Shown: positions 15,996-36,164, numbered from the stretch's first letter. The stretch: 42,734 nucleotides of DNA from Candidatus Latescibacter sp. (GCA_030692375.1 JAUYCD010000086.1:1-42734); one strand, 5' to 3'. Numbers and translations: made by a program. Notes: generated by a model not told the origin, from the sequence alone.

Positions 15996-16622
15996 CTATT
16001 TCTTTAACGTAAGACTGCCGCTCTGCAGCCGGGGTAAAAAAGCTTCTTCATAAAGCGCTATTACTTTTTTAACCGCAAAACAAGTGCATTCCGAAGAAAT
16101 TGTGGCGCCGCTGATAGCCCGGATATCTTTTCTGAGCGCTATCGGATCACTGCTTCCTTTTCCGGTGAATTGATCCAAAAAGTTATTACGGGCAATCGGA
16201 CGGCCGCGTTTCTCCTGATAAGCCATTACCGCCATATTCTGAACCTTTGCGGGAGTGGGGGTTAATCTGATAATAAAATCGACTGGCCCCCATTTTCCAG
16301 GCTGTGCATCAATGACCGCGACACCGACTTGTTTGTTGTTTTTGACACCTATGTAAAACGTAAAGTTTAAAGTTTCGCCGATTTTTCCCGATTCGGAGCC
16401 AGCCTGGAAATGCACGAGCTGACCGCCAAGCCGGCCCTTGATTTTAGCTGCTTCAGCGCTGGTCAGCGTGATAGTCTCCGTGGTTACTTGATCTACATCC
16501 GGAAAGACCTGCTTGAGCGCTTGTTCTTTGGTAAGCAGCACTACTGCCTGTGAAATACCGGTCAACCCAAGGAAAAACACAAAGAATACAGTAATAATGG
16601 CTGCTGTTTTTTTCATTTTCAT
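15996..16622 (-). CDS. Exported FMN-binding domain protein (predicted covalent flavin carrier)
   Basis: This 208-residue protein has an N-terminal signal peptide or anchor (residues ~5-28, ending SQAVVLL). Its FMN-binding domain, of the NqrC/RnfG family, has the attachment motif DIRAISGATISS, where ApbE-type transferases link FMN to the Thr. ATG 16622 has AAAGGAG upstream, and the longer in-frame extension lacks a ribosome site and would hide the signal. It lies 2 bp after apbE, so carrier and transferase are made together. It probably works in the periplasm as an electron carrier. The electron partners are not evident. Confidence 0.87.
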   Translation of the reverse strand: MKMKKTAAIITVFFVFFLGLTGISQAVVLLTKEQALKQVFPDVDQVTTETITLTSAEAAKIKGRLGGQLVHFQAGSESGKIGETLNFTFYIGVKNNKQVGVAVIDAQPGKWGPVDFIIRLTPTPAKVQNMAVMAYQEKRGRPIARNNFLDQFTGKGSSDPIALRKDIRAISGATISSECTCFAVKKVIALYEEAFLPRLQSGSLTLKK

Positions 16623-16624
16623 GA

Positions 16625-17620
16625 CTATCTCCTTTTTACCAGTTGAGTGTTTACTTGCATACCCGATGAATAAATTTTCCTGCCATCGGTAGTCACCATA
16701 AAAGTTCCCGTCGATTGCATGGCGTCGATAATGGGTATTCCCTTTTCCGCACCCAGCACAAACAGAGCTGTGGACCATCCGTCGGCAAGAACCGGATCGG
16801 GAGAGATTATTGTTACACTGGCCATGTCCTGAGAAGGGTATCCTGTTTGCGGATCAAGAATATGGTGATACCGTTTTCCATCTTTGATAAAATACCGTTC
16901 GTAGTCCCCGGATGTAACGACCGTCATGTCGGTCAAGTCCAATGATCCGATAACTCCATCCCCTCGTGGGTCTTTAATCCCGATTTTCCAAGGCCGCCCT
17001 TTGTAGGTACCCAGGGCATAAATATCTCCGCCGGCGTCAATGAGCGCTGAGGTAATTCCTTCCTGTCTCAATACCTTTACCGCCTCGCCAACGGCATATC
17101 CCTTCGCAATCGATCCGAGATCGATTTGCGAACGTGGATTGCTCTTGGTAAGGATGCCATTCTCGATTTTAAGGCTCTTGTATCCCACATCATTCAAAAG
17201 GCTGTCAATCGAGGATTGGAGAGGCACCGCCGGTTTATCGCTGAAAAACCCCCAGAGATTAACAACCGAGCAAATGGTGATATCGTATTTCCCGTCGGAC
17301 TTTTCGCTCACATCAAGGGCGATCCGGACCAAATCTACAATTTCTTTATCTGTTATGGGCTTATTGTTGGTATTGAAATCATACAGCGGACTTTTAGGAT
17401 TCAACATATTGAATTTGCTGTCGATTTCCTCTATCCTGTCCAAAGCCTTTGAAAGAGCGCTCAAGACCCTGGTGTCGCCCGGCGCCTTTATGGTACAGTA
17501 CGTATCCAAGAGATAGCGGGACTGGGATTGAAGAGTATCCGATTCGTGTGTCTTCCATCCCACCAGAAGGATCATAAGCCCAAACAATAAACCAAAAAGC
17601 ATTATTTTATATTTTTTCAT
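16625..17620 (-). CDS. apbE: FAD:protein FMN transferase
   Basis: This 331-residue protein transfers FMN from FAD to Thr in SGAT-type motifs outside the cytoplasm. A single hydrophobic segment (residues 7-22) is a signal anchor, with no lipobox Cys. Family motifs are IDLGSIAKGYAVGEAV, LIDAGGDIYALG, HHILDPQTGYPSQD and LADGWSTALFVLG. Possible clients in the window are the neighbouring FMN-binding protein, NqrB (T201) and the three NqrC domains at 32-35 kb. No other ApbE is seen here, so this one may serve both. Confidence 0.93.
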   Translation of the reverse strand: MKKYKIMLFGLLFGLMILLVGWKTHESDTLQSQSRYLLDTYCTIKAPGDTRVLSALSKALDRIEEIDSKFNMLNPKSPLYDFNTNNKPITDKEIVDLVRIALDVSEKSDGKYDITICSVVNLWGFFSDKPAVPLQSSIDSLLNDVGYKSLKIENGILTKSNPRSQIDLGSIAKGYAVGEAVKVLRQEGITSALIDAGGDIYALGTYKGRPWKIGIKDPRGDGVIGSLDLTDMTVVTSGDYERYFIKDGKRYHHILDPQTGYPSQDMASVTIISPDPVLADGWSTALFVLGAEKGIPIIDAMQSTGTFMVTTDGRKIYSSGMQVNTQLVKRR

Positions 17621-24043: not shown

Positions 24044-24604
24044 TTAAGACGATTCCTCAATGTGTATGACCCGTGTCGGGCAAAGATACGCACAGGCGCC
24101 GCATCCAATACAGGTTTCCGAGATTTTGTCAAAAGGTGTCTGGACTCTTCTCCTGATCCCTCTGTTGGAAAAACTTATCGCGCTCATCCCGACAACTTCT
24201 GCACACACGCGGACACATTGCCCGCACAGAATGCACTTGGACTGATCTTCATGATGAATTCGTACGTTTGTTACCCCGTATTCATCCGCCAGTTTATTTA
24301 TTTTATCGGAGTCGGAGCAGCGGGCCATCAGGAGTTCAATGATAATCTTTCGGGCCTGCACCACCCTTTCGGTATCGGTCTTGACTATCAAACCCTCAGT
24401 GACTTTATAGAGGCATGATACTTGAATGCCCGGCCGTGATCCGCCCACTATTTCAACCACACATAACCGGCATGCCCCGTAAGGCGTCAGATCTTTATGG
24501 TAGCATAACGTCGGTATGTGGATGCCCTCATCCCGAGCGACCTCAAGGATGGTTTTTCCTTCTTCAGCCTGTAGCACCTTATCATTTATCGTACACGTAA
24601 TCAT
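24044..24604 (-). CDS. HydA/NuoG/HoxU-type ferredoxin subunit lacking any catalytic domain
   Basis: This 186-residue cytoplasmic iron-sulfur protein has three predicted clusters. A plant-type [2Fe-2S] uses C34, C45, C48 and C64. Two ferredoxin-type [4Fe-4S] motifs use C124-C127-C130-C134 and C165-C168-C171-C175. This is the N-terminal electron-entry part of HydA or NuoG, but it stops before any H-cluster domain (no TSCCP or PCxxKxxE motif), so it is not a hydrogenase. ATG 24604 has AGGA about 9 nt upstream, and an alternative ATG at 24613 abuts that AGGA. It is the last gene of the Nqr-NuoEF block, split from it by a repeat. It could link the NuoEF-like module to ferredoxin or an unknown partner enzyme. 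Confidence 0.85.
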   Translation of the reverse strand: MITCTINDKVLQAEEGKTILEVARDEGIHIPTLCYHKDLTPYGACRLCVVEIVGGSRPGIQVSCLYKVTEGLIVKTDTERVVQARKIIIELLMARCSDSDKINKLADEYGVTNVRIHHEDQSKCILCGQCVRVCAEVVGMSAISFSNRGIRRRVQTPFDKISETCIGCGACAYLCPTRVIHIEESS

Positions 24605-24681
24605 ACAATGCATTCCTAATAGTTATAAATCGCTTATCTATTTGACTCAGCAAAGGTAAGAAATGGAGCAAATAAAGAACC

Positions 24682-24810
24682 CTCACCCCATGTCCCCTCT
24701 CCCGTAAACGGGCGAGGGGAAAACCCTTTTATCTTTCATAACCCATTATTTATCATGCATATCTGGGTCTTCCCCTCTATTGCTTGCAAGAGAGGGGATT
24801 ATGGGGTGAG
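24682..24810. repeat. MITE-like element with CTCACCCCAT termini, inside the redox block
   Basis: The left end CTCACCCCATGTCCCCTCTC and the right end GAGAGGGGATTATGGGGTGAG are inverted arms around an AT-rich middle. The element lies in the 245-bp gap between the HATPase gene and the HydA-like gene. It may weaken transcription into the latter. It is related to 37489-37594. Confidence 0.7.
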
Positions 24811-24849
24811 TTAAAAAGCGGTTTGAATTAATAACCATTTGTTTAACCT

Positions 24850-25296
24850 CTACTTCGAAGAATCGAAATGAAAAACATCATCTCCTTTTTTATAATCGTA
24901 AATAAACCGGAGAGACGGATATCCGGCTATCAATGCCGCCATTGTCTCAAAAATATTTCCCAACGGTTTCATATCCGGATGGCTGAGAACAAAAACGGCG
25001 GTAATACAGGTGCCTTCCCCCTCTTTTGAATCAATCGTCAAGGTCCCGCCGGTTTGCTCAGCCGCCTGTTGAAGCAGTGAAAGCCCTAATCCGACTCTTT
25101 TCCCCGTTTTCGTAGTAAAGAAAGGATCCAGAGCCTTTCCCGCCGTTTCACTGTCCATACCCGATCCATCATCTCTTATGCAGACCCTCAACCGGTCTTC
25201 ATCCGGATATTCACCGATCTCGATGTGGACGGTTCTGGCATCAGCCCGTATTGCATTTTCAACAATATCAAGTATATGTAACGATATATCCTGCAT
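24850..25296 (-). CDS. Small HATPase-domain (GHKL) ATP-binding protein
   Basis: This 148-residue protein consists almost only of a GHKL ATPase domain: N box ILDIVENAIRADA, G1 RDDGSGMD, a TKTGKRVGLGLSLLQQA lid/G2 region and a final strand TITAVF-like. It has no His phosphorylation domain and no membrane segment. Proteins of this kind (anti-sigma or orphan kinase ATPase type) lie beside HydABC-type hydrogenase genes in many anaerobes together with DRTGG and PHP genes, as here. A role in signalling or maturation is inferred from that company only. Confidence 0.8.
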   Translation of the reverse strand: MQDISLHILDIVENAIRADARTVHIEIGEYPDEDRLRVCIRDDGSGMDSETAGKALDPFFTTKTGKRVGLGLSLLQQAAEQTGGTLTIDSKEGEGTCITAVFVLSHPDMKPLGNIFETMAALIAGYPSLRFIYDYKKGDDVFHFDSSK

Positions 25297-25325
25297 TACA
25301 TCACAAGCTGCCTTTCATGGCGTCA

Positions 25326-26027
25326 TCACAGCGCTGTTTTCAGCGCAGAAAAGGACAGTTCACGGGCAAAAACGGTCGTTGAAGTCTTGCCGATTTCCGT
25401 CAAATAATGGGCATCGGAAAAAGTAACGAGCGGATAGCCGAGGTTTTTGAACGAATCCTTTTTAAGAGCGTCGGCCCTCGGCGAGAGCTCAAGGGCATGG
25501 AGCGGCAAATGTTCCGGGATAAATCCAAGCTGTCCGAGAATACTGAACTGCTCACGGTCGATATGTGAGGCAACGGCGATTCCTCCATTATCCAGGATTG
25601 CCTGAACCGTTTCCTCCAATGATAGATTCGTTGCTCCGATCAGCAGCCTGCCTGAGGAGCCGACTATGCGGTCATATTCATCAACGATCAACTGTTCCCC
25701 AAACCTTGTTTCATCATTCTTTCCGGGCAGGTTCCGATACACCAGTTCCTGCATTCTGTGTAAAGCGCCGTCTTCTCCAAATAACGACAGGATGTGTACT
25801 TCTTCCCGGGTCGTTATCTCCATTCCACCCAGCACATGCACGCCGGCTCTTTCTCCGGCTCTTATTACCGCGGCGACATTTTCTGACGAGTTGTGGTCAC
25901 ATATTCCGATACAGTCCAGTCCGCGCTTCGCCGCTTCATCGATGATTGCAGTCGGCAGCATAGTGAGATCGGCGCAGGGAGAAAGGCAGGTATGTATGTG
26001 TAAATCGATCTTATATTTTTTCACCAT
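25326..26027 (-). CDS. PHP-domain metal-dependent phosphoesterase-like protein
   Basis: This 233-residue protein has the four PHP metal motifs in order: DLHIHTCLSPC (residues ~8-18), CDHNS (~43), GGMEIT (~66) and ASHID (~154), then a C-terminal SDAHYL (~201). The metal site looks complete, so phosphoesterase activity is plausible, but the substrate is unknown. Its start overlaps the end of the DRTGG gene by 17 bp. PHP genes of this type are regular neighbours of bifurcating [FeFe]-hydrogenase operons, where their job is still open. Confidence 0.82.
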   Translation of the reverse strand: MVKKYKIDLHIHTCLSPCADLTMLPTAIIDEAAKRGLDCIGICDHNSSENVAAVIRAGERAGVHVLGGMEITTREEVHILSLFGEDGALHRMQELVYRNLPGKNDETRFGEQLIVDEYDRIVGSSGRLLIGATNLSLEETVQAILDNGGIAVASHIDREQFSILGQLGFIPEHLPLHALELSPRADALKKDSFKNLGYPLVTFSDAHYLTEIGKTSTTVFARELSFSALKTAL

Positions 26028-26373
26028 CAGTTTGTGTGCTTGAGATCCCCAGAGCGTATAATCTACCGACCACCTCGAATGCGGGCATGCTGCTGACCAT
26101 GATCGGTATATGTTCTTCTTCCGCTTTACGGAGCGTATCTTCTTCCGGCACTCTCCCGTTTATCAGGATGATCCCGGATAATTCCTTCGTTCCGGCCACC
26201 GCTACGATATTCTGATGGATCTGCAGGGTTATCCAAATATTCCCTTCCCTGCTGTGGGCAAGGACATCGCTCAACAAATCGCTCACATAACCGCCGGTTA
26301 TCGCGGTATCCAGCCTGTCATCACCGGATTTCACTTCGAGATGCAATGAGTCGACTATTTCCTTCAGGTTCAT
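26011..26373 (-). CDS. DRTGG-domain protein (second copy)
   Basis: This 120-residue protein reads as a single DRTGG domain: a VTGGYVSDLLSDVLAHS-like segment (here ITGGYVSDLL), then WITLQIHQNIVAVAGTKELSGIILINGR and VSSMPAFEVVGRLYALGI. DRTGG domains are small, probably ligand-binding units seen beside CBS domains and in phosphotransacetylase. It starts 2 bp after the CBS-HATPase gene and overlaps the PHP gene. It is a paralogue of the protein at 27306-27680. Confidence 0.8.
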   Translation of the reverse strand: MNLKEIVDSLHLEVKSGDDRLDTAITGGYVSDLLSDVLAHSREGNIWITLQIHQNIVAVAGTKELSGIILINGRVPEEDTLRKAEEEHIPIMVSSMPAFEVVGRLYALGISSTQTDGEKI

Positions 26374-26375
26374 TT

Positions 26376-27305
26376 TTATTCCTTTTCAGAGTCAGGAGCA
26401 AAAAGTATTTCGAATTCCAGTTCAGTTCCTTTTCCGACATCGGACAGTATTTTCAATTCATCAGAACACTTTTTTATGTTATTTAAACCCATACCCGCAC
26501 CGAATCCCAATTCTCTCACCCACTCAGGAGCGGTTGAAAAACCGGGGAGCATTGCCTTCTCAATATCCTCGATCCCGGGGCCTCTATCCCGGGCATAGAT
26601 TTTTATTTTACTCGGATTAACCTCTGCAAAGATTTCTCCCTCATCCGCAAAAACGATCATATTCATTTCAGCTTCGTAAACGGCTATAGCCACTCTTCGA
26701 ACCACCTGGGAATGGAATCCGAGACGTTTCAGAGTCTTTTTCATATTGGTAGCGCAATCGCCTGCCTGTTGAAAATCTTTGCATTTAATCGTGTAATGGA
26801 AGTTCAAAGTTAGTTTTTCGGCAATGATATCTTCGAAGATATGACTCGCCCTGTAAGTATGAATGTCCTCATCCGAATACTTTGCTTCCATTTTCTTTAA
26901 AACACATCTGATAATATCGCCTTTTGTTACAATGCCGACCAGTTTGTGATTTTTGTCGATTACCGGGAAGCAGGTGAACCTGTAGCTCTCGAAATTTCTC
27001 AATGCTTCTACAAGCGGTGAATAGTCAAAGACAGTTTTCACCTTTCTTGACATTTTTTTTTCGATCAAGCAGTCTTCTTCCCTGTTAACCAGCCACTTGA
27101 TATAGTCTCCGATAGTGATGATACCTGCAATTTCCTCATTATCAATTACCGGTATACCGTAAATGCGCTTCGAAAGGAAAATATCTCCCAGAACACTCAT
27201 GTTCATGGTCGAATCGACGACGATAACATCCTTTGTCATCACTTCTTTGACTTTTATTTCGTAAATGAATTCCTGAATTTTCGAAATCTGTTTCGTATTT
27301 TCCAA
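26376..27305 (-). CDS. CBS-pair protein fused to a HATPase domain
   Basis: This 309-residue protein begins with two CBS domains (about residues 17-75, VKEVMTKDVIVVDSTMNMS, and 83-145, ending HKLVGIVTKGDIIRCVL), which usually bind adenine nucleotides. After a short linker comes an anti-sigma-type HATPase (about 170-305) with AVYEAEMNMIVFADEG, ARDRGPGIEDIEKAM and GFGAGMGLNNIKK. It may read the cell's energy state and pass it on by phosphorylation or binding. It sits between the two DRTGG genes with no gap, typical of regulatory cassettes beside HydABC operons. Confidence 0.85.
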   Translation of the reverse strand: MENTKQISKIQEFIYEIKVKEVMTKDVIVVDSTMNMSVLGDIFLSKRIYGIPVIDNEEIAGIITIGDYIKWLVNREEDCLIEKKMSRKVKTVFDYSPLVEALRNFESYRFTCFPVIDKNHKLVGIVTKGDIIRCVLKKMEAKYSDEDIHTYRASHIFEDIIAEKLTLNFHYTIKCKDFQQAGDCATNMKKTLKRLGFHSQVVRRVAIAVYEAEMNMIVFADEGEIFAEVNPSKIKIYARDRGPGIEDIEKAMLPGFSTAPEWVRELGFGAGMGLNNIKKCSDELKILSDVGKGTELEFEILFAPDSEKE

Positions 27306-27680
27306 TTACTGCTCCCTTGTCACTTTTTCACCGCAGGCCAGCCCCGCCAAAAATAACTTACCACAGGCTTCATACATATGATATCTGGTGCAAAGCAACG
27401 GAAGGTCCATTTTTCCCGCTATCGTTATTAACGAATTATCCGGTTTCTTCCCTCTCACAAAACAAATAGCCGATAGGTCAACAAGCTCCGCTGTCCGAAG
27501 TACCTGGAGATTTATCAATCCCGTCAATAGAAGAGCATGAACATCAGTATAAGCCAATACATCGCTCAGTAAATCCGATCCGCACACCGCTTTGATATCC
27601 ATATCTAAAATATCTTCACAACACAATACTTCCGCGTCCAATAATTCTTTAATATTGACGAGTTTCATGGTTGTGTCCAT
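27306..27680 (-). CDS. DRTGG-like protein (first copy)
   Basis: This 124-residue protein follows the same plan as the paralogue at 26011-26373: VCGSDLLSDVLAYTDVHALLLTGLINLQVLRTAELVD, then CFVRGKKPDNSLITIAGK and a final MYEACGKLFLAGL helix. The DRTGG signature itself is weak. It is directly followed by the CBS-HATPase gene and lies 75 bp after the NuoF-like gene. A ligand-sensing role is inferred from the family. Confidence 0.7.
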   Translation of the reverse strand: MDTTMKLVNIKELLDAEVLCCEDILDMDIKAVCGSDLLSDVLAYTDVHALLLTGLINLQVLRTAELVDLSAICFVRGKKPDNSLITIAGKMDLPLLCTRYHMYEACGKLFLAGLACGEKVTREQ

Positions 27681-27755
27681 TTTTTAAAAAATATGGCAAA
27701 AGTAGGGCATAGGCTTCCATGTAAAAAAATCGCAATACATTAGTCGCTCTGTATT

Positions 27756-29570
27756 TCACTCAACTATAACAGCTTCGAACTTGCACTTTTCAAAGCACAC
27801 ACCGCACTTTGTACACAAATCGGGATTGATCGTGTGCGGTTCTTTTTTCTCCCCGGAAATTGCGTTCTGCGGACAGTTCTTTGCACACACCGTACATCCA
27901 TTGCATTTTTCACGATCAATGCGATATGTTATCAATGCGGTGCATACCTTCGCAGGGCATTTCTTCTCCACTATGTGCGCCATATATTCATCTTTAAAAA
28001 ATCTCAACGTACTGAGCACGGGATTTGGCAATGTCTGTCCCAAGCCGCACATGGATGCATCTTTTATGACCGGACAGAGTTCTTCCATGAATTGAATATC
28101 GCTTTCTTCTCCCTTGCCGCTGCAGATTTTGTTCAAAATTCCAAGGAGAGCAGCCGATCCTTCACGGCATGTGGAACATTTTCCGCATGATTCGTCGGTG
28201 GTAAATGCGATAAAGTACTTTGCAATATCGACGATGCAGGTGTCTTCATCCATGACGACCATGCCGCCGGATCCCATGATCGCGCCAGCCTCTTTCAACC
28301 GTTCGTAATCGATGGGAAGATCGAGCAGTTCCGAGGGGATGAATCCTCCTGACGGGCCTCCGGTCTGCACAGCCTTGAGTTTCTTGTTGCCGGGGATACC
28401 GCCGCCGATATCGAAAACCATTTCTCTCAGGGTTATTCCCATGGGAACTTCAACCAGGCCGGCATTATTTATATTCCCCGCGAGAGAAAAGACTTTTGTC
28501 CCGCGACTTGTTTCGGTTCCGATTCCGGCAAACCATGTGGAACCCCAGTTTATGATCATCGGAATATTCGCCCAGGTTTCAACATTATTGATATTGGTCG
28601 GGAAACCCCAGAGACCTGATTGAGCCGGAAAGGGAGGTTTCAATCTCGGCTCGGGCGTCTTTCCTTCTATCGAAGCGATCAGCGATGTCTCTTCTCCGCA
28701 TACAAACGCCCCCGCCCCCTCAAAAATGGTGAGGTTAAAGCTGAAATCGGTATCGAAAATATTCTCGCCCAACAGGCCGTATTCCCGCACCTGCTTTATC
28801 GCTTTCTTAATCCTTTCTATCGCAAGCGGATACTCGATTCTCACATAGATATACCCCTCGCTGGCCCCCATCGCATATGCGCCTATACACATTCCCTCGA
28901 TAATAGCGTGAGGATCGGCCTCTACGATGCTCCGATCCATGAAAGCGCCCGGATCGCCTTCGTCGGCATTGCAAATAACATAACAGGGGGCTTCGGGCGA
29001 CTTCTCCCTTCTCTTCAGAACTTCCGCCCTGCATATGCTCCATTTCTCGCCCGTTGGAAACCCGGCGCCGCCTCGTCCCCGTAAGCCTGACTTTTTGATT
29101 TCCTCAATAACCTGATCAGGAGTCATGCTCGTCAGAACCTTTACCAGCGCCTTATATCCATCATTCGCGATATATTCATCGATATTTTCCGGATCTATCA
29201 GGCCGCGGTTTTTCAGTGCTATCAGCCGCTGGTCTTTGAAAAAAGGAATATCTCTTATTTTGGGAATCGGTGTTTCCTCGCCGGCAGGAACATACATTTT
29301 TGAAGTAACAGGTCTGCCTTTAAGAAAATGTTCCTCTACTAATTTGGGAATATCCTCCACTTTCAGAAACTGATAAAAAATTCCATCAGGCTGCACCATC
29401 AAAACGGGACCATTGACACAAAGTCCGCTCGCACCTGTCTGGACAATCTGAATATCATTATTCAGGCCCTGCCGCTGTATCTCATATTCAAGAGTATTCT
29501 TTATTTTTAACGCACCGTTGGATATGCAATTCGTACAGGTGCAGATCAACGCATTCGACCGATATGCCAT
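27756..29570 (-). CDS. NuoF/HydB/BfuB-type flavoprotein with extra iron-sulfur domains
   Basis: This 604-residue protein is the NADH-binding flavoprotein of the module. An N-terminal thioredoxin-fold [2Fe-2S] domain (residues 1-85, with C10, C12, C15 and the later GLCVNGP) precedes the NuoF core. The core has the FMN loop GLRGRGGAGFPTGEKW, NADEGDPGAFMDR and CGEETSLIASIEG, and the [4Fe-4S] motif ESCGKCSTCREG. The C-terminus (~550-604) adds two ferredoxin [4Fe-4S] sites (CNGCTVCAKNC and CTKCGVCFEKC). This extended form is typical of HydB/NfnL-unrelated 'Bfu' subunits of electron-bifurcating enzymes rather than of complex I. No complex I membrane genes occur here. It lies 91 bp downstream of the thioredoxin-fold [2Fe-2S] gene and within the Nqr block. 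Confidence 0.93.
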   Translation of the reverse strand: MAYRSNALICTCTNCISNGALKIKNTLEYEIQRQGLNNDIQIVQTGASGLCVNGPVLMVQPDGIFYQFLKVEDIPKLVEEHFLKGRPVTSKMYVPAGEETPIPKIRDIPFFKDQRLIALKNRGLIDPENIDEYIANDGYKALVKVLTSMTPDQVIEEIKKSGLRGRGGAGFPTGEKWSICRAEVLKRREKSPEAPCYVICNADEGDPGAFMDRSIVEADPHAIIEGMCIGAYAMGASEGYIYVRIEYPLAIERIKKAIKQVREYGLLGENIFDTDFSFNLTIFEGAGAFVCGEETSLIASIEGKTPEPRLKPPFPAQSGLWGFPTNINNVETWANIPMIINWGSTWFAGIGTETSRGTKVFSLAGNINNAGLVEVPMGITLREMVFDIGGGIPGNKKLKAVQTGGPSGGFIPSELLDLPIDYERLKEAGAIMGSGGMVVMDEDTCIVDIAKYFIAFTTDESCGKCSTCREGSAALLGILNKICSGKGEESDIQFMEELCPVIKDASMCGLGQTLPNPVLSTLRFFKDEYMAHIVEKKCPAKVCTALITYRIDREKCNGCTVCAKNCPQNAISGEKKEPHTINPDLCTKCGVCFEKCKFEAVIVE

Positions 29571-29661
29571 TCAACTATCTCCAAATTTCAACCTTGACAG
29601 GCCGGAATGCAGGGAGTAACCGTCTCGGGGTGCTTCTTCCTTGCACAACCACAGGAAATGC

Positions 29662-30045
29662 CTATAATACTCTTTCGCTCCCGATCGATAATGCGTATTC
29701 CTTGACTATCGACCCGCCAAGAACATGTTTTTCTAATATTTCACGGGCCTTTTCGGGCGTCACATCGACATATTTCACCGGCGGCTCGTTTTGTAATTCA
29801 ATCGTAATCATCGGCTCGCGGCTGCAAAATCCCGCGCAGCTCGAAATGGTCAGGATGATATCCTTCAGATCCCTTCGTTCAATCTCTTCCATAAGAGCAT
29901 TCATGACGGTTCTCGCTCCGGCCGCGATCCCGCATGTTCCCATGTGAACGATGACTTTCGCTTTACCAGAGCCTTCCCGCAGGTTTATTATTTTTTTCAT
30001 GCGCTGACTGATTTTTTCAAGATCTTCAGGCTTTAATTTGTTCAT
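29662..30045 (-). CDS. Thioredoxin-fold [2Fe-2S] ferredoxin-like protein
   Basis: This 127-residue soluble protein belongs to the stand-alone NuoE-like/thioredoxin-fold ferredoxins found next to HydB genes. Conserved parts are HMGTCGIAAGARTVMNA (C38) and ISSCAGFCSREPM (C70, C74). Only three Cys fall in cluster positions; the fourth position of the usual CxxxxC pair is Ala, so cluster binding may be atypical. ATG 30045 is chosen over an upstream in-frame ATG because it fits the domain start. It overlaps the NqrF-NuoE gene by 20 bp and so is coupled to it. Confidence 0.78.
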   Translation of the reverse strand: MNKLKPEDLEKISQRMKKIINLREGSGKAKVIVHMGTCGIAAGARTVMNALMEEIERRDLKDIILTISSCAGFCSREPMITIELQNEPPVKYVDVTPEKAREILEKHVLGGSIVKEYALSIGSERVL

Positions 30046-31003
30046 CTTTAACCCTATCTGATGGATAGTGATGTAAAACATCTATCACTTTGTGCTTATC
30101 CAGATATCCAAAAATATCATCGTTTATCGATATTACCGGCGATTGACCGCAGCACCCGATACAACTAACCGTATCAAGCGTATATTTTAAATCCGGTGTA
30201 TTCTGGTGGACCGATATACCCAGCTCTTTTTCAAGGGTATGGAGAAGGCCCGCGCCGCCTTTTACATAGCATGATGTTCCCAGGCAAACCTTGATGATAT
30301 TCCTGCCCCGGGGTTTCAGACTGAAAGCGTTGTAGAATGTTGAAACCCGATAGATAGTGCTGTATGGAATATTCATCTCTTTTGATACCATTGCCAGCGC
30401 ATATTCCGGCAAATAATTGAAAACTGTATGAATATTTTGAAGAATAGGAATAGTAGACCCGGGCATATCCCTGTGAGCTTCTATTATATTATATATTTTT
30501 TCTCTGTGATCGGTTTCAATTTTTATTTTTGGTTTCTTTTTTTCCTCACCGTACTGTAGATGTTCCATTCTGAATTTCCACTTCAGTTTCGGATTATACA
30601 GACGGTTTTTAACGATGTTTCTCACCGTTTCGACAAAGTCGGGCAGGGAAATTTCCATGTCATTTTTAACCTTGACCTGACATGCAAGCCTTATTCCTAC
30701 CTTTCTTTCTTCTGGAGTGATAAATCCTTTTTCTGTGGGGAGAATTTGACCTCCACCCTGTATAACTCTCACTTTGCAATAGCCGCAGCTTGCTTTTCCG
30801 CCGCATGCAGACGGAATATTAAAATTATGTGAAATAAGGGATGTGAGAAGCGTTTGACCGCCGCGAACGGTGAACTCATCTTCCCCGGCAACGCGAATCA
30901 GACATTCACCGTAATCGGCGAGCACGACATCGGCCAGAATGAGCAGGCCGCCCAGGAGGAGGCTGACACCGGTAAGAACGACGATAGGTACTATATACTC
31001 CAT
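30026..31003 (-). CDS. NqrF-type membrane [2Fe-2S] domain fused to a NuoE/HydC-type [2Fe-2S] subunit
   Basis: This 325-residue chimera has a membrane helix at residues 4-28. An NqrF-like plant-type ferredoxin follows with C67, C73, C76 and C108 (SACGGKASCGYC, RLACQVKV). In real NqrF, FAD/NADH-binding domains would come next; here a ~25-residue basic linker leads into a NuoE domain (about 165-315) with C240, C245, C281 and C285 (KVCLGTSC, CIGCCGQ). The protein thus replaces the NADH dehydrogenase half of NqrF with a socket for the NuoF-like protein encoded two genes on. It sits after nqrE exactly where nqrF belongs. The predicted electron path is NADH, NuoF FMN, NuoE [2Fe-2S], NqrF [2Fe-2S], then the NqrDE cluster. 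Confidence 0.92.
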   Translation of the reverse strand: MEYIVPIVVLTGVSLLLGGLLILADVVLADYGECLIRVAGEDEFTVRGGQTLLTSLISHNFNIPSACGGKASCGYCKVRVIQGGGQILPTEKGFITPEERKVGIRLACQVKVKNDMEISLPDFVETVRNIVKNRLYNPKLKWKFRMEHLQYGEEKKKPKIKIETDHREKIYNIIEAHRDMPGSTIPILQNIHTVFNYLPEYALAMVSKEMNIPYSTIYRVSTFYNAFSLKPRGRNIIKVCLGTSCYVKGGAGLLHTLEKELGISVHQNTPDLKYTLDTVSCIGCCGQSPVISINDDIFGYLDKHKVIDVLHHYPSDRVKDEQIKA

Positions 31004-31022
31004 AAAAAAAAGATCCTTGTCT

Positions 31023-31616
31023 TTAGAGATTGACTACTCCGGAAAAGCCCATGAATGCCAAGGCCATTATACCGGCAATGATCATGGTGATGCCGGGTCC
31101 CTGGAGACCTTTGGGGATGTCGGAAAACGCCATCTTCTGACGGATGCCGGCCATGGCCACAATGGCCAGGGTCCAGCCGATCCCGCTGCCCAATGCGTAA
31201 ACCAGCCCCTGGACAAAGGAATAGTTGCGGAGAGTCGCGATGAGAAGCACCCCGAGGATGGCGCAGTTCACTGTAATAAGGGGGAGGAAAACTCCCAGGG
31301 AAACGTAGAGTACGGGGGAATAACGGTCTATAAACAGCTCCACTATCTGCACAAACGCCGCGATAACCATGATATACACCAGGAACTGCAGGTAATCCAC
31401 GTGGAGGGGCACCAGAACCAGGAAATTGATAGGCCAGTTCAGCGCCATAGTCATGAACATCACGAAGATCACAGCAGCGCCCATGCCCAGGGCGGTAGGA
31501 ATCTCCGTGGACACGGCCACGAATGGACACAGCCCGAGAAAATTAGAGAGTATCATGTTCTGCGTAATGATGCTGGCAAAGAAAATAATGAATAGATTTG
31601 TGAAATCGATTCCCAT
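31023..31616 (-). CDS. nqrE: Na+-translocating NQR/Rnf core membrane subunit E
   Basis: This 197-residue protein has six membrane helices in the NqrE/RnfA pattern. It opens NLFIIFFASIITQNMILSNFLGLCPFVAVST. C30 and C118 (LITVNCAILG) occupy the conserved half-helix positions that, with the two Cys of NqrD, hold an intramembrane iron-sulfur centre in Vibrio NQR. ATG 31616 follows GAGGAATTAACT and comes 2 bp after nqrD; the longer open frame reads back into nqrD and is rejected. It is followed by the NqrF-NuoE fusion. Confidence 0.93.
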   Translation of the reverse strand: MGIDFTNLFIIFFASIITQNMILSNFLGLCPFVAVSTEIPTALGMGAAVIFVMFMTMALNWPINFLVLVPLHVDYLQFLVYIMVIAAFVQIVELFIDRYSPVLYVSLGVFLPLITVNCAILGVLLIATLRNYSFVQGLVYALGSGIGWTLAIVAMAGIRQKMAFSDIPKGLQGPGITMIIAGIMALAFMGFSGVVNL

Positions 31617-31618
31617 AG

Positions 31619-32224
31619 TTAATTCCTCTGGGTGAGAGTACGAAGGAGCCAGATGTAGAGCCCGAGCACGAAAAACGCCCCCGGCGCCATGACCATGATA
31701 ACCCAGGGCGTCCACCAGGAGCCGAGCACAGTTATGTCGAGAAAGGTCCCAAACCCCAGAAGCTCACGGATAACACCTATGACGAGTATGGAGAATGAAT
31801 ACCCGCAGGAAACCCCGAGGCCGTCGAAGAAGGACGGTATCACCGGATTTGAGATGGCGTAGGCTTCTGCGCGGCCCATCACGATGCAGTTGGTGATGAT
31901 CAGCCCCACATAAGGGCCGAGCGCGGCGGATATGGCCGGATAGTAAGCTTTCAGCGTCTGATCCACCACAATGGTGAATGTGGAGATGACCATCATGAAC
32001 ACCGCCATGCGGATACGGGACGGGATAATGGAGCGGATCATACTGATTATGGTTGAGGAGCAGGTGGTGACAAAAATTACCCCCAGGGCCATGGCGATGG
32101 AGTTCTTTACATTGTTGGTCACCGCCAGCGAAGAACAGATGCCCAGCATCATCGCGAACAGGGCATTATTCTTCCAGAACCCCTCAAAGAAAACCTTAAA
32201 TTCTCTGGATTGTCCTAAACCCAT
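31619..32224 (-). CDS. nqrD: Na+-translocating NQR/Rnf core membrane subunit D
   Basis: This 201-residue protein has six membrane helices. Family features are FKVFFEGFWKNNALFAMMLGICSSLAVT (C30), the second ligand C113 in GLIITNCIVMGRAEAYA, and PSFFDGLGVSCGYSFSI. It pairs with NqrE as the inverted-topology half of the ion-pumping core. It lies 12 bp after nqrC. Confidence 0.93.
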   Translation of the reverse strand: MGLGQSREFKVFFEGFWKNNALFAMMLGICSSLAVTNNVKNSIAMALGVIFVTTCSSTIISMIRSIIPSRIRMAVFMMVISTFTIVVDQTLKAYYPAISAALGPYVGLIITNCIVMGRAEAYAISNPVIPSFFDGLGVSCGYSFSILVIGVIRELLGFGTFLDITVLGSWWTPWVIMVMAPGAFFVLGLYIWLLRTLTQRN

Positions 32225-32236
32225 AAATCAACCCTT

Positions 32237-33928
32237 TTATTTTACAGCACTGAAGTAGGCGTTAAAACCGTTATTAAGTATTCGGACGACAGCTTCTGAA
32301 GTCACAGTTGCACCAGTCAAGGCGTCAAACTCGTTTGGCCCAGCTTTTCCGGTTTTTACAAGCGTAATGCCCTGCGCCACCTTTTTCCCGATGAACTGCT
32401 TCTGAAAGGCATCATCCATGATACGCTCACCGAACCCGGGAGTTTCTTTCTGGCTTACCACTTTGAATCCGCTGACCGTATCCCCTTTCAGCGCCGCCAC
32501 CACAGTGATGGTATCCTGATAACCTTTTCCGGAAAGACACAATGCCGCAGCGCCGCTCTCGTTGTCACGGTATATGAGTAATCCTTTTTCTTCCGTTTCC
32601 TTAATGCGCTCCCGGTAATTCTTCAGAATGGCGACGCTGTCCTGAGGGGCATAAGGTATCCCGAACACATCAAGGATTGACATGATGAGTTTGATTTCCC
32701 GGTTCTTTGAAATAACCGCCTCGCTTTTTACAGCATTCTGCCCGCTTTTCGGAGCGTTTTCCTCACTTTTGGAGGAGTTCGGTTCGTTTTTCGAAGCACC
32801 TTCCTCGCTCTTTGAGACTATCGGCTCGCTCTTTGAGGCGGTTTCCACGCTTTTGGCGGCAACCTGCTCGGTTTGGATGTTATAGTGCGCACGGAAACCA
32901 TTGTTAAGCATCCTTTCCAGCGCCTCTGAAGTCACTGTCGCGCGGCTTACAGCGTCAAACTCGGTTGGGCCTGCATGACCGGTTTTCACAAGTTTGATGC
33001 CATTGGATACTTTTTTCCCGATAAACTGATTCTGAAAGGTGTTGTCAGCGATCTGCGATCCCAGGCCGGATGTCTCATTCTGGCTCACCATCTTGAATCC
33101 GCTGATAGTATCGTTCTTAAGCCCCACTACCACGATTATGGTGCTCTGGTATCCGCTGCCGGCTAGAAGGATGGCAGCAGCGCCGCTCTTTTTCTCCAGG
33201 TATGTTTTTATTCCCTTTTCTTCCGATTCCGCGATAGTTTCCTTAAAGTTTTTGCGGATAGCGACACTATCTTGCAAACCATAATTCATCCCGAACATAT
33301 TGAGGACTGTCATCATGATTTTAACTTCCATGCCCTTTGGGATCTCCGGCACGGCTGCAGTATTGTAAAACGAAGAGAAACCAAGGTTGAGAATACGGGT
33401 GAGCGCCTTGGAAGTTTCGGTGGCCCCGGTGATGGCATCGAACTCACTCGGTCCGGAATGGCCGGTTTTAACCCACTTGATTCCTCCCGATACTTTTTTC
33501 CCGATAAATGAGTCCTGAAATGATTTTTCCATCATACGCGCCCCAAGTCCGGGGGTTTCATTCTGGCTGACCACTTTGAAACCGGAGATCGTTTCCCCAT
33601 TGAGCGCCACCACCACGGTGATGATGCTCTGGAATCCGCTGCCGCTGAGCGAGACAGCGGTTGCCCCGCTCTCTTTTTCTTTGAAGAGCCTGAGTCCCTT
33701 TTCCTCGGATTCGGTCACCCGGTTTTTATAGATGGAGATGATCTCCGCCGTGTTTTTCGGATTGTATTTTATCTGGAAGGCATCGAGAACAACGCCCTTC
33801 CTCTTTATTTCTTCATTCCTCTGAATGATGGGCAGGGTTTTGATATTGACCAGCGCCAGGAATCCTGAACAGATAATCGAAAGGATGAGGAGCATGCCCA
33901 TGATCCATTTCTTGCTGTTCATGTTCAT
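32237..33928 (-). CDS. nqrC: NqrC/RnfG-like subunit with three tandem FMN-binding domains
   Basis: This 563-residue protein is about twice the usual NqrC length (~260). One N-terminal membrane anchor (residues ~7-28) is followed by three FMN-binding repeats, each with SGFKxVSQxETxGxG, FIGKKV, LVKTG and an attachment motif. The motifs are DAITGAT (T170), DAVSRAT (T331) and DALTGAT (T541). The middle one has Arg (R329) in place of the conserved Gly, so its covalent flavin is in doubt. Repeats 2 and 3 are separated by ~50 extra residues of Lys/Ser/Glu low-complexity linker (KSE repeats). The start overlaps the nqrB stop (ATGA). Flavinylation would need ApbE, present at 16625-17620. The repeats seem to have arisen by internal duplication. 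Confidence 0.92.
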   Translation of the reverse strand: MNMNSKKWIMGMLLILSIICSGFLALVNIKTLPIIQRNEEIKRKGVVLDAFQIKYNPKNTAEIISIYKNRVTESEEKGLRLFKEKESGATAVSLSGSGFQSIITVVVALNGETISGFKVVSQNETPGLGARMMEKSFQDSFIGKKVSGGIKWVKTGHSGPSEFDAITGATETSKALTRILNLGFSSFYNTAAVPEIPKGMEVKIMMTVLNMFGMNYGLQDSVAIRKNFKETIAESEEKGIKTYLEKKSGAAAILLAGSGYQSTIIVVVGLKNDTISGFKMVSQNETSGLGSQIADNTFQNQFIGKKVSNGIKLVKTGHAGPTEFDAVSRATVTSEALERMLNNGFRAHYNIQTEQVAAKSVETASKSEPIVSKSEEGASKNEPNSSKSEENAPKSGQNAVKSEAVISKNREIKLIMSILDVFGIPYAPQDSVAILKNYRERIKETEEKGLLIYRDNESGAAALCLSGKGYQDTITVVAALKGDTVSGFKVVSQKETPGFGERIMDDAFQKQFIGKKVAQGITLVKTGKAGPNEFDALTGATVTSEAVVRILNNGFNAYFSAVK

Positions 33929-35007
33929 GATGAGACTCCCCTGCCGTATTTTACTGTCAGGACAACCTCGTCTATCAGCGCCGCGAATATATTCATAAAC
34001 AGGATGGCGAACATCACCCCTTCGGGGAAACCGGACAGGTTCCGGATGAATATGGTTACAGCTCCGATGGCCAGGCCATATATCCATTTACCGGCGTTGG
34101 TGAAAGGGCTGGTCACCGGATCGGTCACCATAAAGAAGGCGCCGAACAAAAGGCCGCCGGCGAAAAGGTGGAAAACCGGAGAGGCAAATTTCACCGGGTC
34201 GGCCAGGTGCATTATTTCCGCCATCGCCAAAGCCGAAACGATAGTGGCCAAAGGCAGCCTCCAGTTCGCCACCCTTGTCACAATCAGGAATATGCCGCAG
34301 AGAATGATCAGCGCGCCCGATGTCTCCCCCAGGCACCCGCCGGTGGAGCCGATAATGAGATCCTTCAGGGGAGTCAATACACCGCCCTTGAGATTTATAA
34401 GGGGTGTGGCGGAAGTAATCGCATCGCCCGATTTTGCCCAGTGGAGAAATCCGCCCCAGGCGCCGCCATAAGGCTCCACCCAGGAGGAGGACATCGGCCC
34501 GGGAAAGGTCGCCGCCAGGAATACCCGGCCGACAATGGCCGGATTGAAGATGTTTTTGCCTGTGCCGCCAAATACTTCCTTGCCCAGGATCAGCCCCACC
34601 GCCAGCCCCACCGCCGCCATCCAGAACGGGATGGTCGGGGGAAGGATCATGGGATAAAGGATGCAGGTGACAAACATTCCTTCGGTGACCTCCTCGTTCT
34701 TGGCCACCGCGAATCCCATCTCGATGAAGATGCCGACAATGTAGCAGAAAATGACCAGCGCAAGGCTCCTCCATCCGAAAAAGTAGATGGAGGCGAGCAC
34801 GGTCGGTGAAGCCGCCAGCATCACCGCGATCATATAGCGCTTTAGATCGGTGTTGTCGCGGATGTGAGGACCTTTGAGCGGGTTCACCGCACGGGGTGAG
34901 AAGAAAAAGGTGGACATGGTATCCCAGGCCGGATGCAGCCTGGATTTTTCGAACACCCGGTCTATCCTCTCGATAAGCTCCCGGAAGCGGCCGATTAATG
35001 TATTCAC
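33925..35007 (-). CDS. nqrB: Na+-translocating NQR/Rnf membrane subunit B
   Basis: This 360-residue protein starts at a GTG with GGAGG 6 nt upstream that overlaps the nqrA stop (GTGA); a longer open frame runs back into nqrA. It follows the NqrB/RnfD plan: N-terminal soluble stretch, then about ten helices with FVTCILYPMILPPTIPFW and GKEVFGGTGKNIFNPAIVGR. The probable covalent FMN site is T201 in SGDAITSATPL. In NQR this subunit carries FMN and riboflavin and takes part in Na+ transfer. The sodium specificity here is inferred, not shown. Confidence 0.93.
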   Translation of the reverse strand: MNTLIGRFRELIERIDRVFEKSRLHPAWDTMSTFFFSPRAVNPLKGPHIRDNTDLKRYMIAVMLAASPTVLASIYFFGWRSLALVIFCYIVGIFIEMGFAVAKNEEVTEGMFVTCILYPMILPPTIPFWMAAVGLAVGLILGKEVFGGTGKNIFNPAIVGRVFLAATFPGPMSSSWVEPYGGAWGGFLHWAKSGDAITSATPLINLKGGVLTPLKDLIIGSTGGCLGETSGALIILCGIFLIVTRVANWRLPLATIVSALAMAEIMHLADPVKFASPVFHLFAGGLLFGAFFMVTDPVTSPFTNAGKWIYGLAIGAVTIFIRNLSGFPEGVMFAILFMNIFAALIDEVVLTVKYGRGVSS

Positions 35008-36164
35008 TGCGCGCCTCCTTCCCGACGCTTTTTTACCGCATCCTGCACAGAGCTGGAAAGGCTGATTTTGGAGGGACACACATAATCGCACAACCGGCAG
35101 TCGATACAAAGCTGGGGCTTCAGCCGAAAACTCTGTTCGATCATTCCTGCTTTCACATGTTTCCATATCAGGTGCGGGTAGATTTTCACCGGACAGACCT
35201 CATCGCAGAAATTGCATTGCACGCAGGGCCGGACGCCGCCATGAATACTAGAATCCATTCGCTTGGGGAGAAGCGGCAGGTAATTTCGAAAGGTCAGCCG
35301 CGAGTAGCTGTCATAGGTAAAGCCGGGATTGAGGAAGCGGTAAAAATCCCGAACCGCATGTTCCCGGATAACCGTAATTTCACGGTCTGATATCTGCACG
35401 GAGTCGCTCTGGGGGACAACGCCGGTCAGCGCATCGCCCCTGATGATCCGCCAGGGGCCGTATTCCTCGGATTTCAGGAGATGTTTGCGGATGTCCTCAA
35501 AGCGGACGCCGATCCGGATACGGTACCACCCCGGTCTCGATACCCCGGGACCGGCCACGAGGATGATACGGTCTATGAGCGGTCGTCCCCTTGTCATGGA
35601 TTCGGAGGTCTGGAGTACATCGAGGAAGGGAATAACCAGAGTCGCTTCGTCCTCTTTCTCCACAGGCGCCTTGAGCAGGTCGCGGCGGAGGATCGCCGGG
35701 AACTCCTGCGGGTAGCGGTCGGACATGATGCGGACAGCGGCGAGTTCCCGCACTTCCGCAGTCTCAAACCAGCTTCGATTACGTTTATTTATGGCGATGA
35801 TTATCCGTGAGGAGGGAAAGAGTATATGAAGAGTTTTCAAACCATCGATAAATAATCCCCGGTCTTCAAAAATCTCCGGTTTCCAGGCCTGGTTCAGGAG
35901 GGAATTGTGCACTGCGCCGATAATAATGTTTTGTATCCGGTCGCAGTCTTCGAGAGTCTCAAAACGACCGGGGAAAAGCGCCGCACAGCCGGAGCTGTGG
36001 AAAAGCTCCAGCGCCTCTTTCCGCTCCAGGCGCCAGGGCACCCGCAGATGGCCCGGAAGCGGTTGGTAATCGTGCGAAATTGTTTCAGGAATGGGAAAAT
36101 CTCGTAAAACAGGTTCCGCCGCACCCTCAAAACTTTTAAAAATGTATCCGCCGGAAAAGGTCAT
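35004..36164 (-). CDS. nqrA: NqrA-like subunit with two RnfC-type [4Fe-4S] motifs and a shortened N-terminal domain
   Basis: This 386-residue protein matches NqrA through the middle (RKEALELFHSSG..ALFPGRF, GLFIDGLKTL, then the PLIDRIILVAGPGVSRPGWYRIRIG region). The C-terminus carries C314-C317-C320-C324 and C353-C356-C359-C363, two ferredoxin [4Fe-4S] sites as in RnfC and absent from Vibrio NqrA. The lipoyl-like N-terminal domain (HIGAPAxPxVKxGDxVxxGQ region) is not found; only ~40 residues precede the middle domain. No good ribosome site lies before ATG 36164. Codons ~9-29 fall in a 62-bp stretch repeated at 13851-13912. It may accept electrons from ferredoxin or dock the soluble module. It is the first gene of the Nqr block. 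Confidence 0.82.
   Translation of the reverse strand: MTFSGGYIFKSFEGAAEPVLRDFPIPETISHDYQPLPGHLRVPWRLERKEALELFHSSGCAALFPGRFETLEDCDRIQNIIIGAVHNSLLNQAWKPEIFEDRGLFIDGLKTLHILFPSSRIIIAINKRNRSWFETAEVRELAAVRIMSDRYPQEFPAILRRDLLKAPVEKEDEATLVIPFLDVLQTSESMTRGRPLIDRIILVAGPGVSRPGWYRIRIGVRFEDIRKHLLKSEEYGPWRIIRGDALTGVVPQSDSVQISDREITVIREHAVRDFYRFLNPGFTYDSYSRLTFRNYLPLLPKRMDSSIHGGVRPCVQCNFCDEVCPVKIYPHLIWKHVKAGMIEQSFRLKPQLCIDCRLCDYVCPSKISLSSSVQDAVKKRREGGAQ

Follow-up and report, generated by a model that had tools for sequence, protein, structure and literature searches.

We analysed a 42,734-nucleotide stretch of DNA from the uncultured anaerobe Candidatus Latescibacter sp. (GCA_030692375.1, JAUYCD010000086.1:1-42734), hereafter the window, which makes up the whole of contig C86 in a draft genome of 3.9 Mb (273 contigs, 97% complete, 3.4% contamination). 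RNF draws electrons from ferredoxin, and NQR draws them from NADH via a flavin adenine dinucleotide (FAD) domain. The minus strand of the window carries, from position 36164 to 24044, a cluster in which the membrane core of a Na+-NQR is followed by the subunits of a Bfu (HydABC-type) enzyme, with the N-terminal part of NqrF fused to the NuoE-like subunit. From the sequence, we consider it probable (roughly 0.7) that the products form one membrane complex, "Nqr-Bfu", which would pump Na+ (or H+) with electrons from NADH and probably also from ferredoxin. The cluster would thereby represent a third input, an electron-bifurcating Bfu module, on the ion-pumping core common to RNF and NQR.

Gene content of the input module and the pump core

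Families were assigned by profile matches plus sequence comparison of the window proteins. The genes encode, in order, an NqrA-like protein, NqrB, NqrC, NqrD, NqrE, the NqrF'/NuoE fusion, a small [2Fe-2S] protein and BfuB/HydB; 3' of BfuB, on the same strand, follow genes for DRTGG, CBS-HATPase, DRTGG, PHP and HATPase proteins and then a HydA-like ferredoxin subunit. From nqrA through the small [2Fe-2S] gene, neighbours overlap or are spaced by ~20 bases at most. All genes of the original prediction were confirmed at the coordinates and on the single strand that it had given.

In the fusion protein (P0006; 30026..31003, minus strand, as for every cluster gene below), the NqrF match (TIGR01941, 2.6e-32) was confined to the N-terminal 128 residues, and residues 172-313 matched 2Fe-2S_thioredx (NuoE) at 4.1e-42. 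Profile matches revealed no FAD-binding domain in P0006. The NqrF' part consists of a single transmembrane helix and a [2Fe-2S] domain with the ligands Cys 67/73/76/108, all four of which were invariant among the homologues compared. The NuoE part corresponds to BfuC and carries the C1 cluster ligands Cys 240/245/281/285; these were conserved in all six BfuC homologues compared, and BfuC was fused in three of the six. Searches of the whole genome likewise found no NqrF-type FAD domain, its two PF00970 matches being proteins of the hydrogenase-gamma/NfnB and the ferric-reductase type. With the fusion devoid of this domain and BfuB encoded alongside, the claims that an intact NqrF FAD domain is missing and that an NADH module stands in for it were both borne out. 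The next gene (29662..30045) encodes the small thioredoxin-fold [2Fe-2S] protein, recognised by a profile match and by its homologues.

BfuB/HydB (27756..29570) comprises a predicted N-terminal [2Fe-2S] domain, a NuoF-type flavin mononucleotide (FMN)/NADH domain, the ligands of clusters B1 and B2, and an intact C-terminal 2x[4Fe-4S] region. It matched by profile and aligned end to end with the solved NiFe-HydB of A. mobile (9e-243) and with an iron-hydrogenase HydB. The pentacoordinate B2 ligands of the A. mobile protein (C438, C476, H525, C531 and C536) correspond to C445, C483, H532, C538 and C543 of the window protein, and the B2 histidine was conserved in 16 of 16 BfuB proteins compared. 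This histidine occurs in virtually all bifurcating BfuB and is missing from non-bifurcating homologues, which also lack the B2-B5 clusters (Schut et al., PMC9304861). The retained B2 His/Cys ligand set supports the prediction that the NuoF-like protein is of the HydB/Bfu type. The same ligands bear on a simpler explanation, in which BfuB and the NuoE domain are a complex-I-type NADH module for an Nqr pump, with neither ferredoxin nor confurcation. Electron transfer from NADH to quinone is exergonic enough by itself, and the B5 cysteine layout is altered in BfuB of the window and of Omnitrophota (C10/C12/C15/A47/C51, vs the standard C10/C15/C47/C51; four cysteines, rearranged). However, the protein retains the B2 histidine, every B2 cysteine and the full C-terminal 2x[4Fe-4S] set, and the reported lack of B2-B5 in non-bifurcating homologues (PMC9304861) speaks in the same direction, which makes this explanation unlikely.

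The HydA-like ferredoxin subunit (P0009, 189 residues; 24044..24613) was recognised by its cluster motifs, one [2Fe-2S] and two [4Fe-4S], with no His-ligated cluster. It ends before the point where an H-cluster domain would begin, so the hydrogenase H-cluster is absent from P0009, in agreement with the original prediction. By motif count, the subunit resembles a Type 2 BfuA (without A3 and A5).

The membrane core of Na+-NQR, NqrB to NqrE, is present in full. NqrB/RnfD (33925..35007, profile match) has a reading frame that continues upstream to 35166, and a GTG start at 35007 agrees with homologue lengths. NqrC/RnfG (32237..33928) was assigned by profile matches and motifs and contains three FMN_bind domains, with FMN-threonine motifs at residues 164 (DAITGAT), 325 (DAVSRAT, the degenerate middle copy) and 535 (DALTGAT), compared with a single domain in the NqrC of relatives. 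This triplication is not an assembly stutter, because the copies share just 60-67% DNA identity. Profile matches and alignments identified NqrD (31619..32224), whose Cys 30 and Cys 113 align with the cluster region of V. cholerae NqrD, and NqrE (31023..31616), in which both intramembrane cluster cysteines are kept. The NqrA-like protein (35004..36164, 386 residues; profile matches and motifs) has two Cx2Cx2Cx3C motifs, at residues 314 and 353, of the RnfC-type 2x[4Fe-4S] dicluster. The FMN/NADH-site motifs GxGGAxFP and NxxECEP are absent from it and present in the RnfC of the same genome, and its N-terminal barrel-sandwich domain is ~65 residues shorter than in the same-family NqrA of locus L049 (13098-14480). 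An NqrA without the NAD/FMN site yet with the Fe-S dicluster bears on the origin of NQR from RNF and would fit, as one step, the scenario of losses in Reyes-Prieto et al. 2014 (PMC4014512). The RnfC 2x[4Fe-4S] motifs are also kept in NqrA of several anaerobic phyla (L049, L117, L119, L126, L130, L161 and L165, besides the window), and the FMN/NADH motif was lost in all four NqrA tested with the checked pattern (window, L049, L161 and L165).

Recurrence in other phyla and origin of the input module

A locus scan of species genomes, run with patterns favouring canonical NqrF, gave among the matches listed an Omnitrophica locus (L060) with nqrBCDE, an ordinary FAD-NqrF, and then the fusion and the rest of the input module. 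Identity to the window was 49% for the fusion, 76% for BfuB and 66% for the ferredoxin subunit; the small [2Fe-2S] protein reached 79% with the Omnitrophota copies, that of L060 included. All five accessory genes were present in L060 in the order of the window. A second Omnitrophota carrier, G268 (2/384 genomes surveyed), has the full gene set with no FAD-NqrF in the cluster and, upstream of it, a gene for a Rex-type repressor. In three Spirochaetota (G075, G079 and G522), NqrF' (149 residues, without FAD) and NuoE are encoded side by side by two unfused genes. The gene set is complete in G075; the clusters of G079 and G522 end at contig edges, and in G522 the small [2Fe-2S] gene was not called. 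Within its own phylum the cluster was found in 1 of 64 genomes, and surveys of 395 and 396 genomes, covering the phyla to which a Desulfatiglandales and an Aminicenantes genome belong, found none. The arrangement is conserved across three phyla, rare but repeated.

These genomes also bear on two other explanations. An artefact of assembly or binning that combined unrelated genes could be suspected for a single contig from a 273-contig draft with 3.4% contamination. Its probability is almost negligible, given that two Omnitrophota assemblies have the same fusion and gene set and that three spirochaetes have the pair unfused. This recurrence in Omnitrophota and Spirochaetota rules out an assembly error as the source of the fusion. 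Alternatively, Bfu and NQR might be independent enzymes, with the NqrF' domain as a mere membrane anchor for a soluble Bfu. BfuABC does act alone in many soluble enzymes, and L060 still has an ordinary FAD-NqrF for its pump. On the other side, FAD-NqrF is missing from the cluster in G268, G075, G079 and the window, leaving no other pump input encoded there, and the [2Fe-2S] cysteines of NqrF' are invariant although a mere anchor would need no cluster. We regard two independent enzymes as quite improbable.

Phylogenetic comparison placed the pump and the input module differently. Relatives of the window's own family (G006-G008) have the same pump, with NqrB/D/E ~70-77% identical, and an ordinary FAD-NqrF. 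In the concatenated NqrB/D/E tree the window grouped with these ordinary NQRs at 100/100, and in the BfuB tree it grouped with Omnitrophota at 100/99. All Nqr-linked BfuB fell into one supported clade, which also holds one Hdr-linked relative. The NqrF' domains formed one clade with moderate support (87/87), with a single origin in 90% of bootstrap trees and the window on a long branch. The G+C content was 52.6% in nqrA-E and 45-46% in the input module. Taken together, the pump tree, the BfuB tree, the FAD-NqrF of own-family relatives and the G+C shift indicate, at the level of sequence, that a resident NQR gained a Bfu input module by horizontal transfer, in place of its FAD domain. The imported module would be working with this new pump. 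The window NqrF' itself is suggestive of a chimera, in which the N-terminal half looks native and the C-terminal half imported (permutation p 0.03).

Two sister Bfu clusters, L046 (G006) and L169 (G536), carry a short HdrA-like N-domain on NuoE and a large HdrA-like protein joined to BfuA; the BfuB of L169 is 69% identical to that of the window.

Proposed electron path and electron acceptor

In NQR and RNF, a flexible domain, the [2Fe-2S] domain of NqrF or the [4Fe-4S] domain of RnfB, feeds the membrane [2Fe-2S] held by NqrD/E (PMC12174285). The FMN of NqrC/RnfG is reduced next, followed by the flavins of NqrB/RnfD, and electrons leave riboflavin for the RnfC cluster in Rnf or for quinone in Nqr (PMC12174285). 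Judging from homology, the BfuB FMN and the clusters of BfuC and BfuA would oxidise NADH, probably together with reduced ferredoxin. The next carrier would be the NqrF' [2Fe-2S], in a membrane-tethered domain that forms one polypeptide with BfuC. Because NqrF' is fused to BfuC and the NqrD/E cysteines are present, NqrF'-BfuC appears well placed between the BfuB FMN and NqrD/E. The usual NQR/RNF path might then follow, from the NqrD/E [2Fe-2S] to the NqrC FMN and to the FMN and riboflavin of NqrB, and the electron flow would drive Na+ (possibly H+) outward. The exit would be either a lipid quinone or the RnfC-type clusters retained in NqrA. Confurcation of NADH and ferredoxin would follow only if the Bfu rule applies here. 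A more specific version, a Na+ pump with NADH and ferredoxin confurcation coupled directly to the NQR/RNF core and with exit via the NqrA clusters, is tentative. If true, it would be a working intermediate between RNF and NQR and would show that pumps of this family can exchange their input module by horizontal transfer.

Several points weigh against an Nqr-Bfu complex fed by both donors. It is a prediction from sequence. NADH alone could power a quinone-reducing pump, making ferredoxin energetically dispensable. The cluster is rare, with survey counts of 1/64, 2/384, 2/393, 0/395 and 0/396, and in L060, where FAD-NqrF is retained next to the fusion, the two inputs may exist together. An AlphaFold model of the fusion built on a three-row alignment was unusably poor, with a predicted local distance difference test score (pLDDT) of 40 and a predicted template modelling score (pTM) of 0.31. 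As for the acceptor, the genomes of the window, L060, G075 and G079 yielded no MqnA/D (futalosine route, PF02621; G268 was not searched), and MenD appeared only below the cut-off in those four and G268.

These quinone genes bear on whether the exit is instead via the RnfC-type 2x[4Fe-4S] of NqrA, towards a soluble cytoplasmic acceptor, in an Rnf-like manner with another partner at each end. NqrA in the clusters retains both Cx2Cx2Cx3C motifs and is without the FMN/NADH motifs, transfer from riboflavin to the RnfC cluster is known for Rnf (PMC12174285), and the failure to find MqnA/D, or MenD over the cut-off, in the host genomes searched would fit. In contrast, no evident cytoplasmic partner gene lies in the cluster. 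The Omnitrophota clusters (L060 and G268) are directly followed by MenA, over the cut-off, and a polyprenyl diphosphate synthase, and that of G075 by the synthase; the window genome has a more distant MenA-like gene (72.5 bits, under the TIGR00751 cut-off). We consider a cytoplasmic output possible but rather doubtful. For the Nqr-Bfu complex the acceptor may be either a quinone made from a scavenged precursor or a cytoplasmic one docking on NqrA. In L060, where neither futalosine genes nor MenD over the cut-off were found, there may be precursor scavenging or an unrecognised quinone route. MenA-like and polyprenyl synthase genes follow nqr in the Omnitrophota loci L103, L119, L130, L060 and L165, with radical SAM genes nearby in three of them.

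Relation to known systems and neighbouring genes

The cluster shares with Na+-NQR the nqrABCDE order, the NqrB-E core and the transmembrane helix and [2Fe-2S] domain of NqrF. It differs by having NuoE, BfuB and BfuA in place of the NqrF FAD/NADH domain, a 2x[4Fe-4S] dicluster in NqrA and, in the window, a triplicated NqrC. With RNF it shares a homologous membrane core and the RnfC-like Fe-S dicluster; unlike RNF, it has no rnfB among the cluster genes, and its NqrA has no RnfC FMN/NADH motifs. The predicted absence of RnfB therefore held for the cluster and failed for the cell, where a separate, complete rnfCDGEAB operon, RnfB included, lies on contig C267. The original prediction had named a complete nqrF or rnfB elsewhere, combined with an isolated and non-conserved cluster, as evidence against itself; the complete Rnf exists, and the cluster is conserved rather than isolated. 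The genome also encodes an [FeFe] HydABC (C20), a NAD-linked formate dehydrogenase with HydB/HydC (C165) and PduS (C16). No membrane arm of complex I (NuoL/M/N/H) was seen among the window open reading frames read, and no genome-wide search for it was made.

As in the Bfu family, there are a BfuB with B1, B2 and C-terminal clusters, a BfuC, a Type-2-like BfuA and accessory regulatory genes; the differences are the fusion of BfuC to NqrF' and a Na+-type NQR core as the third partner. Unlike the [FeFe]-hydrogenase HydABC, the HydA-like subunit has no H-cluster domain. Nuo-Bfu (complex-I-like Bfu) is likewise predicted to be bound to the membrane, to use a quinone-type acceptor and to pump ions, whereas the pump here is of the NQR/RNF type rather than an antiporter-type complex I. 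Membrane-bound Bfu enzymes have been named as Mbh-Bfu and Nuo-Bfu only, with Nqr unmentioned (PMC9304861). A 2025 RNF/NQR review, in which NqrF is FAD-based, makes no mention of NuoE, HydB or a hybrid, and the combination was not found described in open-access literature. The cluster is thus a known pump core with a known input module in a combination not found described, which makes it a variant and not a class of its own. The proposed "third architecture" is apt on the input side, the membrane core being that of an ordinary NQR/RNF. In carriers from three phyla, electron bifurcation is probably linked to ion pumping. If active, the complex would join a Bfu enzyme to an NQR-type pump and would make confurcation-driven Na+ transport testable.

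The five accessory genes between BfuB and the BfuA-like subunit encode a DRTGG-domain protein (27306..27680), a CBS pair with HATPase (26376..27305), a second DRTGG-domain protein (26011..26373), a PHP-domain protein (25326..26027) and a HATPase (24850..25296). Both DRTGG domains scored slightly below the Pfam cut-off, and the other three were profile matches. Among other nqr loci, nqrBCDEF clusters with no recognisable nqrA in the flanks made up most of the Clostridia (Firmicutes) loci among the matches listed, e.g., L063, L076 and L083.

The presence of CODH/ACS in the same cell, also predicted, was confirmed on the same contig at 6443-13407 (minus strand), with genes for the CODH catalytic subunit, acetyl-CoA synthase, a corrinoid protein subunit and a CooC/MinD-like ATPase. 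Between 13900 and 18830 (minus strand) lie adjoining genes for a response regulator, a histidine kinase, an extracytosolic FMN_bind protein, ApbE and a porin-like protein, which may be a locus of flavin-based extracytosolic electron transfer. Profile matches identified the FMN_bind protein and the ApbE flavin transferase (15996..17620) as candidate helpers of the cluster: ApbE could flavinylate NqrB and NqrC, a connection that we infer.

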